12,701 nt of DNA from Hyphomicrobiales bacterium (GTDB lineage: Bacteria; Pseudomonadota; Alphaproteobacteria; Rhizobiales; Aestuariivirgaceae): assembly GCA_026987255.1 (NCBI GenBank), contig JALSNA010000216.1, forward strand, positions 1 to 12,701. The letters run 5' to 3'. The position numbers and the translations under genes were made by a program. Numbering within the stretch: the first letter of the stretch is position 1; each line of letters opens with the position of its first letter. Under the pieces are notes generated by a model. That model was not told where the DNA came from and did not search any database. It saw only the letters and a program-made list of their open reading frames with translations. Shown one piece after another: positions 10,586 to 12,600 of this stretch.

Positions 10586-11431
10586 TTATTTATGAAGTGA
10601 TGCGCTCTCTCCCGCAAGAGCGAAAACGGCCACCTCCACCCGCCCCGCCCCGGCCCGCGCCAGGGCCTGGCAACAGGCCGCCGCCGTCGCCCCGGTGGTG
10701 AGCACGTCATCGATCACCACCACATGACGGCCCGCGACCATGGAGCGCGCCCGCTGCGCCACGGCAAAGGCCCCGCGCACATTTGTGCGCCGGGCTGTCC
10801 CGGAGAGCCGGACCTGCGGCGTGGTGGCGCGCAACCGCACCAGGGCTTCGGGCGCAAAGATGGCTCCCGCCTGGCGCGCCACATCCCTTGCCAGCAGGGC
10901 CGACTGGTTGAAGCGCCTGCGCCACAGCCGCCGCCGGTGCAGGGGCACCGGGATGACCACGGTTTGCGCCGTGAGCACACCGGCCAGCCTGCGCCCCAAA
11001 AGCCGCGCCATGAGCCGCGCCGCCTCGTGCCGGTCATGATATTTCAGCCCCCGCACGAGCTGGCGCGCCACCCCCTCATAGGCCACCGCGGCGCGCAACC
11101 GCGCCCAGGGCCGCCGCGCCATCAGGGCCGGAACGCTTTGCAAATCCGTTTCCGCTCCGGCAAAGGCCAAGGGCCGCCCGGTCAGCGGACAGGAGGGCTC
11201 CTCGATGAAAACCAGCTCGTGCCAGCACGAGGCGCACAACCCTCCGGCCGCGCCCGTGGGTTCACGGCAGACCAGGCAGCCCGGTGGCGCGATGACATCC
11301 ACCCCGGCCGCCAGAACACGCCTGGCCATTCGCCCCCCTTCAGCCGCAAACCGCGCCACCACCAGCCGCCAGCCGTCCCGATCCATCATCTCGTCATCTT
11401 CGGGAAGCAAGTTGGGCCTCATGTCTCGCAT
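10586..11431 (-). CDS. comF: ComF family protein, phosphoribosyltransferase-like
   Basis: ComF proteins are needed for uptake of single-stranded DNA during natural transformation in several bacteria, but they are also common where competence is not known. The 281-residue protein has an N-terminal zinc-finger region (CLVC at 52-55, CASC at 66-69, then CPLTGRPL from 81), then AVAYEGVARQLVRGLKYHDR (115-134). IPVPLHRRRLWRRRFNQS (160-177) follows. The C-terminal phosphoribosyl-diphosphate loop VVVIDDVLTTGAT (237-249) is intact. The start is uncertain: ATG 11431 gives the longest form, and ATGs at 11422 and 11389 are possible. Position 11431 is only 20 bases from the palindromic element, which therefore sits in its promoter or leader. 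Confidence 0.93.
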   Translation of the reverse strand: MRDMRPNLLPEDDEMMDRDGWRLVVARFAAEGGRMARRVLAAGVDVIAPPGCLVCREPTGAAGGLCASCWHELVFIEEPSCPLTGRPLAFAGAETDLQSVPALMARRPWARLRAAVAYEGVARQLVRGLKYHDRHEAARLMARLLGRRLAGVLTAQTVVIPVPLHRRRLWRRRFNQSALLARDVARQAGAIFAPEALVRLRATTPQVRLSGTARRTNVRGAFAVAQRARSMVAGRHVVVIDDVLTTGATAAACCQALARAGAGRVEVAVFALAGESASLHK

Positions 11432-11449
11432 TGCATTCCAAAGCCATGT

Positions 11450-11614
11450 TAGGGTCAGGACTCATAAAGAGGGATGACATATGCAGGATTTAGGCAAAAT
11501 ATCAGCTTTCTTTCGTCCGCGGGCAATACCTGAAGGTATTGTCGAGGGCGAAAGGACGCTGATATGCAGCATAAATCCTGCAGTAGCCGTGCAAATTTAT
11601 GGGTCCTGACCCTA
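11450..11614. mobile_element. MITE-like 161-bp palindromic element with TA flanks
   Basis: Positions 11452-11612 form one imperfect palindrome centred on 11532-11533. The outer 17 bases match with one difference: GGGTCAGGACTCATAAA on the left and GGGTCAGGACCCATAAA read inwards on the right. Further exact paired blocks are TGCAGGATTTA (11482-11492 with 11572-11582), TATCAGC (11500-11506 with 11558-11564) and a central CAATACCT, GA, AGGTATTG (11524-11541). By hand about three quarters of the arm positions pair. Each end is followed by TA (11450-11451 and 11613-11614), as expected for a 2-bp TA target duplication (IS630/Tc1-mariner and some IS5 members). No transposase is encoded, so it would be non-autonomous. 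The transcript would fold into a long hairpin. It lies in the divergent comF/methyltransferase promoter region. Confidence 0.75.
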
Positions 11615-11664
11615 GCATGCGCCACCCGCCATGACACGCCAGGGTCTTTCACAGCAGGCGAAAC

Positions 11665-12600
11665 ATGATCCGAACACCCCGGAACGGCCCCTTCGACGAA
11701 CCCCTCATGAGCAGGCGCATGGCCCGCCTTGCGGCGCCCGAAAGCGCCCCCATGCCGGATTTTCTCCACCGCCACGCACTGCAGGAGCTGACCCAGCGTC
11801 TGGCCGCCATCAATCGCCATTTTGCCAGAGCCGTCATCTGCACCGCAGCACCTGCCGATGCGTCGCGCATTGTCGAATCTTCCGGCAAGGTGGAAGAAAT
11901 CCGCCACGTCAAGCCCTGGAGCATGTCCGGAGAGCATGATGACCCAGCCGCGGCCGTGATCCTGCCGCCGCAAGCCCTTGCCGTGGCGCCGCAAAGCATC
12001 GATCTTTTCATCTCCATCCTGGATCTGGCCCTTGTCAACGACCTGCCCGGGGCACTGTCGAGCATCCGCCGCGCCTTGAGGCCCGATGGGCTTTTCCTCG
12101 CCGTGTTGCCCGGAGAAAACACCTTGCACGAATTGCGCGCCGCCTGGGCCATGGCCGACAGCGCCCGCTTCGGCGAACCACAGCTTCGGGTGGCCCCCTT
12201 TTGCTCCTTGCAGCAAGTGGGAAGCCTCATGCAGATGGCCCGGTTCGCCCTGCCGGTGATCGATCTGGAACGGCTCACCGTTCGCTACCCGGATGCCCTG
12301 GCATTGATCAGCGAACTGAAGGCCTTGGGCTGGGCCAACCCGCTGGCCGCGCGCCCGCGCAGGCCGGTCACGCGGGGCCTCGTGGCCCATGCGGCGGCCC
12401 TCTATGAAACCGCCCACGCCGATGCGGATGGACGCATTCCCGCCACCTTCGAACTGCTCAGCCTGTCTGGCTGGGCCCCCCATGAAAGCCAGCAAAAGCC
12501 CCTCAAGCCGGGAACCGCCTGCATGCCCCTGGGCAAGGCCCTCTCAGGCGGCGATATGGTCCCGCCCGAACCCGTCAATCCTCGAAGGGATCCTTCATGA
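11665..12600 (+). CDS. NDUFAF5-type methyltransferase-fold protein with degenerate SAM site
   Basis: The 311-residue protein matches the alphaproteobacterial homologues of NDUFAF5, the mitochondrial complex I assembly factor, which are also BioC-like. Family features: [16 protein letters not shown] (9-24), [21 protein letters not shown] (33-53), the region [20 protein letters not shown] (123-142), and [19 protein letters not shown] (143-161). Further on are [22 protein letters not shown] (194-215) and [20 protein letters not shown] (258-277). At the first SAM motif, where active enzymes have LDLG or DxGxG, this protein reads [15 protein letters not shown] (53-67) with no glycines. Human NDUFAF5 hydroxylates an arginine of a complex I subunit, so methyl transfer need not be its job. 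Start ATG 11665 keeps the family N-terminus. The 3' end overlaps convergent purA by 26 bases. Confidence 0.85.

Follow-up and report, generated by a model that had tools for sequence, protein, structure and literature searches.

A 161-bp palindromic MITE between ComF-like and methyltransferase-like genes and the hairpin it has in common with elements bearing different ends

The DNA analysed here, which we call the window, is a stretch of 12,701 nucleotides. It carries a ComF-like gene with a double zinc ribbon and a phosphoribosyltransferase domain on the minus strand (10586..11431; NCBIfam comF, 96.9 bits, below the cut-off) and a methyltransferase-like gene on the plus strand (11665..12600; two hits, both below curated cut-offs). 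The two genes flank, and lie outside, an imperfect palindrome of 161 bp at positions 11452 to 11612, bordered by TA at 11450..11451 and 11613..11614. A preliminary description of this DNA had placed a long imperfect inverted repeat with TA on both sides about 20 bases from the ComF-like start and about 50 from the methyltransferase-like start, and both the repeat and the distances (ATG at 11431, minus strand, about 20 bp; ATG at 11665, plus strand, 50 bp) were borne out. The plus strand of the palindrome folds at -97.9 kcal/mol compared to -43.2 (sd 3.8) for shuffled sequences (z = -14.5), with none of 200 shuffles as good. The repeat had also been described as non-coding, and the open reading frames that run across it, such as 11455-12495 on the minus strand (346 aa) and 11205-11477 on the plus strand (90 aa), are mechanical and show no gene signs. 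Its 18-base centre CAATACCTGAAGGTATTG, previously called perfect, is not a perfect palindrome and consists of two 7-base arms around TGAA.

We define the whole element (11452..11612) as a P-type MITE whose core strand is the plus strand. Its left terminal inverted repeat GGGTCAGGACTCATAAA (11452..11468, plus strand) holds GACTC, a GANTC site, and its right terminal inverted repeat GGGTCAGGACCCATAAA (11596..11612, minus strand) is without GANTC. The flanking TA dinucleotides presumably represent the left and right copies of a 2-bp target duplication at a TTAG target. Inside lies a conserved core hairpin of about 101 bases (11482..11582, plus strand; 107.7 bits with our covariance model R1), interrupted by two internal loops, all read on the plus strand. 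Loop 1 places AAA (11496..11498) opposite GCA (11566..11568), and loop 2 places GCG (11519..11521; GCA is commonest elsewhere) opposite GA (11544..11545; AA is commonest elsewhere). A direct repeat ATATGCAG, read from the sequence, is present at 11479..11486 and 11562..11569 (plus strand).

Copies, ends and target sites

The organism's own draft genome (2.5 Mb in 529 contigs) matches the element in at least 41 places at 81 to 100% identity (DNA search, better strand), a lower bound given that 40 of 62 candidates were scored. Several of these matches are cut by contig ends, and many contigs start or stop about 110-127 bases into an element. So many contig ends inside elements suggest that the repeats broke the assembly and that copy number is underestimated. 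A pattern of the ends occurs 99 times in the same genome at up to two mismatches, 11 of these being ends of the Q family described below, compared to 0 for the reversed control. Among 40 genomes searched, 11 gave matches: the own genome, 9 of 10 congeners and one other via 26 end bases only. The same 11 came up when 69 family genomes were scanned. The further copies in this genome and its relatives that a MITE should have are therefore present, and the palindrome, being short, non-coding, with terminal inverted repeats and many dispersed copies, is a MITE.

The comF-upstream region of relatives had been named as the place to look for an empty site with a single TA. We found both genes at only one (L227, in the congener G005) of nine congener loci compared. 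There the comF-like gene is a near neighbour of the methyltransferase-like gene and the gap holds no element, which bears out the absence of the element in a relative; none of the nine loci offered an exact empty site, with the same flanks around one TA, and at L227 the two genomes are too diverged (57% protein identity) for exact flanks to be compared. The same sequence at this position in all relatives would have spoken for a fixed structure, and G005 lacks it. A fixed riboswitch or leader at the locus is ruled out by this element-free orthologous gap and by the at least 40 other places where the element occurs.

The 17-bp ends (GGGTCAGGACYCATAAA) are those of IS5-family elements of about 842 bp in named bacteria. 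Among the matches listed, the exact end is present in 80 contigs of named organisms, mostly but not solely Alphaproteobacteria, and 9 of the 11 IS-sized end pairs in these contigs are spaced by 840-878 bp. Frames within the IS-sized pairs contain the Pfam domains DUF4096 and DDE_Tnp_1; they also match NF033580, the IS5 model of NCBIfam, whose cut-off was passed by both second frames tested, the three first frames falling just short. In the congener G007 an IS5-type frame above the cut-off adjoins an end TAGGCTCAGGACCCATAAAA, a near-match to the P ends. As a mobile element, the palindrome is a new member of the IS5-type MITEs. DUF4096 gave no match in the own draft of 529 contigs, and neither did an ORFA query; it is present in 5 of 11 genomes of the genus, in 4 of them above the cut-off. 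DDE_Tnp_1 is found at two places in the own genome, one of IS4 type and the other weak and unclassified. The partner transposase may thus be absent only from the draft, have been lost, or reside elsewhere.

Reading the complete own P copies in both orientations gave 55 rows, which were merged by eye to 28 copies. TA is present on both sides in 22 of these 28, and the target conforms to YTAR in 19 of the 22. In 10 of the 28 the copy directly adjoins an end of a second element, and at 9 of these 10 junctions just one TA separates the two, which speaks more for duplication of TA on insertion than for a TA carried by the element itself. Head-to-tail arrangements of elements from different families, one dinucleotide apart, are seen at L005, L007, L012, L013, L041, L077 and others, so that the ends of elements seem to attract insertions. 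In the flanks of L015, L049 and L058, P insertions are accompanied by yet another repeat (GTGTCCCATGACC next to TA), probably a further MITE family of this genome. In a Puniceicoccales MAG, outside Proteobacteria, a 304-bp pair of P-type ends (L187, 3170-3473) has an interior that resembles a transposase remnant by eye and looks like an IS deletion derivative without the core.

Exactly one end holds GANTC in 10 of the 11 IS-sized pairs (L120-L199), in 25 of the 28 own P copies and in 11 of 12 own Q copies. This rule is weaker elsewhere (16 of 24 P elements of G007 and G005, 7 of 12 branched elements), and the single GANTC arises via different base differences in P and Q. We take GANTC to be a CcrM-type site; a single one might tie transposition to the adenine methylation that follows replication.

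The core hairpin across element families

In addition to P elements, the own genome holds Q elements with ends TAGGGTCTGGWCTCAATAAA (68, 136-137 and 254 bp) and one element of 267 bp with R ends TAGGGCGTAGACCCATAAA. The long forms fold into an outer stem with three hairpins, one long, one small and a further one. The long one can be recognised as the same in P, Q and R, three MITE families with different ends, and in congeners: 25 of 26 congener and family loci hold it, the other having an end only. Larger branched elements in other bacterial families also carry the core hairpin. Shorter forms look like the product of hairpin losses between short direct repeats, possible deletion sites being ATATGCAG in P and GCCAGCGGCA and GCCAG in Q, and the short P copy L053 would fit a deletion between two ATATGCAG repeats.

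A search with model R1 of the core found matches in 11 genomes out of 397 from the order and in 3 out of 385 from the class, the own genome being included in both counts. We accepted a core or tip in G115, G039, G399 and G695, and left out G193, G220, G186 and G260 as relatives (loop 2 was not found in the rows of G193 and G186; G220 and G260 gave low scores only), together with G455 at 30.3 bits. The weak G455 match (L281), whose tip reads by eye as GCC opposite AA, is possibly a distant relative. In L254 (G039) and L246 (G399) the ends are quite different (TAGAGCATGTTTTGGCTAGATAG and GAGCGCCTAACARAACCAGAGA, respectively), and the hairpin shows the same GCA/AA loop and tip. G695, from another family, has two copies, at 75.5 and 50.9 bits, whose stem sequences differ. 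Both have GCA/AA as loop 2; loop 1 is intact in the first copy and changed in the second. The first lies within a 266-bp branched element with P-type ends. Among the matches listed, 4 of the 6 end pairs shorter than 690 bp in named contigs hold core-type elements (L126, L151 from a Rhodobacteraceae MAG, L157 and L198), which were found by their ends alone and three of which are called by model R1. In L198 loop 2 is GCC/AA.

We looked at covariation in two alignments, A1 with 42 cores (16 own and 26 from congeners) and A3 with 16 cores, in which each lineage or family is represented roughly once. In A1, 94.3% of cells pair, compared to 80.9% in shuffled alignments and 36-51% with slid partners; in A3 the corresponding figures are 94.7%, 74.5% and 36-51%. 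Both sides change in 24 of 38 pairs in each alignment. Such compensatory changes had been listed in advance as evidence against a MITE, and they are abundant; copy number, IS-type ends, TA flanks and the element-free G005 locus speak for one. Abundant compensation together with dispersed copies suggests that the element is both mobile and structurally constrained.

The internal loops are conserved as well. In A3, 14 of 16 rows have RAA opposite GMA in loop 1 and 13 of 16 have GCN opposite AA in loop 2, with the window copy carrying the variant GCG/GA. For some rows this conservation is partly due to how they were selected, since a finder requiring the loop-1 motifs listed the own A1 rows, and in A3 the rows of G115 and G695 were supplied by a model that includes the loops. 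The 25 congener loci came from DNA similarity, and L151, L157 and L198 were picked up only through their ends. An automatic search placed loop 2 in 17 of 24 rows, in L151 at the wrong place (the alignment has GCA/CAA in place). The rows where it was not found are own Q, G001, G115, G039, G193 and G186. Of these, G115 reads ACA/AA in A3 and G039 reads GCA/AA by eye; the own Q family is without loop 2, having a fully paired arm, and G001 is without the tip.

The fold is that of one strand. G-U cells outnumber A-C cells by 151 to 24 in A1 (20 vs 4 pair positions) and by 58 to 10 in A3 (15 vs 4 pair positions, p = 0.02). An A-C here is a G-U on the other strand, and the excess of G-U therefore indicates that the fold of the core strand was kept. 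The core strand also folds better than its complement in 16 of 17 elements with RNA energies and in 14 of 17 with DNA energies; some of the 17 are near-identical, and the G008 element was dropped, its ends being unmatched by the finder. We take this covariation as showing, at the level of sequence comparison, a hairpin under selection for one strand's fold rather than IS debris.

It is conceivable that the element is an ordinary IS5-type MITE whose arms are homogenised at the DNA level by hairpin or cruciform repair and whose interior has no selected function. All families are long palindromes whose arms match, and the own Q family has a loop-less, fully paired arm, which would fit this. However, homogenisation should erase mismatched internal loops, and these are kept at fixed positions with largely fixed letters; nor should it favour G-U over A-C. 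We consider it unlikely.

Orientation and neighbouring genes

The idea that insertion is oriented came from 23 core sites (G002, G003, G115 and G695), of which 19 have the core on the C-rich strand; own and G007 sites then served as a test. For own copies the core is on the C-rich strand at 18 of 22 sites, and at 12 of 12 with a skew of at least 0.04. For G007 the count is 30 of 40 (21 of 29 at a skew of 0.02 and 18 of 24 at 0.04). Pooling 60 sites, one per region with the exception of two in L310 and leaving out extra G007, G002 and G003 sites and those of G115 and G695, gives 48 on the C-rich strand compared to 12; p-values for orientation treat sites as independent, which they are not fully. 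With GC3 skew balanced between gene strands the lean is 39 vs 9 at the 48 computable sites.

Q copies lean the same way in 9 of 11 cases, including five core-less 68-bp forms. We therefore attribute the orientation to the ends or the insertion reaction, which probably set it, and not to the hairpin. One GANTC per element is unsupported as its cause: P and Q share the lean although their sites lie to different sides of the core, and the incomplete hold of the rule in relatives' elements weakens the idea further. GC skew serves here as a proxy, and on the assumption that the C-rich strand is the lagging strand, orientation would be coupled to the replication fork. Strand-biased deamination was set aside as the origin of the G-U excess, since on a C-rich strand it would be expected to give A-C instead.

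The transcript of the MITE could alternatively be a processing or stability element in host mRNAs, in the manner of ERIC, NEMIS or BOX. The strand-specific, RNA-like fold and the position of copies close to genes are compatible with such a role; by simple codon-usage gene calling, no copy lies inside a called gene at 27 own and 41 other core sites. Neighbours of own copies are co-oriented in 9 cases and anti-oriented in 3 in our reading, which is what a host-mRNA role would predict and counts against the explanation we prefer below. But elsewhere no such bias is seen: other core sites with tandem neighbours are 10 co compared to 12 anti, one-sided sites are 4 to 3, and orientation relative to the regional gene majority is 30:30 at the 60 sites. 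A promoter scan showed no promoter, and Rfam 15 at gathering thresholds gave no family in the window and only two tRNAs over eight core-element loci. In the absence of a consistent sense bias, promoter or Rfam match we prefer, with moderate confidence, an element-level role of the folded strand over host gene control, to which we give a small chance.

Were the element to move at the fork as a DNA single strand recognised through its core hairpin, a one-strand fold with replication-linked orientation would follow by the logic described for IS200/IS605 in the available text of PMC5371812, but we regard such movement as very improbable, as ends and TA targets are of IS5 type with clear terminal inverted repeats, which IS200/IS605 elements lack, core-less 68-bp Q copies lean alike and, assuming a G-rich leading strand, the well-folding strand is not the lagging-strand template.

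Proposed explanation and related repeats

We lean towards the explanation that the palindrome is a non-autonomous MITE mobilised by an IS5 element, inserted in an oriented manner, with an interior hairpin selected for one strand's fold and acting in the element's own spread. Judging from ends and targets, an IS5-family transposase would recognise the 17-bp ends in trans and insert the element at YTAR sites with duplication of TA. Insertion would be oriented relative to replication; the orientation to GC skew is observed, and coupling to the fork is what we infer from it. The hairpin with its two conserved loops would be kept by selection on one strand's fold, across different ends and bacterial families. 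The folded strand, a transcript or single-stranded DNA, would most likely be bound by something during the spread of the element and not act for the genes next to its insertion sites, and shorter copies would arise from hairpin loss between short direct repeats. Against this explanation, the own assembly is without such a transposase, so that any present-day movement is presumed. The promoter scan that showed no promoter, the smaller majority (14 of 17) with DNA energies, the loss of loop 2 in the own Q family and of the tip in G001, and the variant loop of the window copy also count against it.

More tentatively, and with the balance rather against it, these elements may belong to a class of mobile structured nucleic acids of Alphaproteobacteria. 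Its members would consist of a hairpin of about 100 bases, often within a branched element of 235-274 bases, swapped between transposon ends, selected for one strand's fold with fixed loops and oriented by replication. The fold, as RNA or single-stranded DNA, would be a handle or cofactor of mobility.

The usual view of bacterial MITEs is that of passive remnants of ISs. In the present elements it is the interior that is conserved: it is found between differing ends, retains its two loops while its stems show compensatory change, and was maintained as the fold of one strand. In the open-access literature that we searched we found no description of a strand-specific conserved interior common to elements with different ends. 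Whether the interior of a MITE works for its own spread becomes directly testable, and any finished genome that carries such elements allows a second check, on the replication-linked orientation.

Compared to known systems, the element resembles IS5-family MITEs in being short, non-coding and present in many copies with IS5-type ends and TA flanks; unlike in those, the interior is a conserved fold common to families with different ends and not a trimmed IS. Orientation that follows replication is described for Tn7/TnsE, IS200/IS605 and several IS families in the available text of PMC5371812, for transposons where here it concerns a MITE.

The closest published kinds are the BOX, ERIC/NEMIS and CIR repeats. 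BOX elements of pneumococcus are, in the available text of PMC3049150, likewise intergenic repeats of modular build, with ends resembling those of ISs and a fold predicted for their RNA. They differ in phylum and sequence, and BOX has tandem boxB modules (PMC3049150) where the present elements swap ends around a single core hairpin whose internal loops are fixed. ERIC/RU-1 and NEMIS/Correia are palindromes of 100-200 bp with TA ends and a stable stem-loop, and the effects of ERIC on mRNA depend on its orientation, as far as described in the available text of PMC2229807. Compared by description, they are unlike the present elements, which show no consistent sense bias to genes. CIR elements of Caulobacter and Brucella are also alphaproteobacterial intergenic palindromes with TA ends, GANTC and a conserved predicted RNA structure (available text of PMC2229807). 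We set them apart by description only: that text lists CIR without terminal inverted repeats, with two linked arms and with GANTC near a loop, whereas the elements described here have a closed outer stem, clear terminal inverted repeats and GANTC within a terminal inverted repeat.
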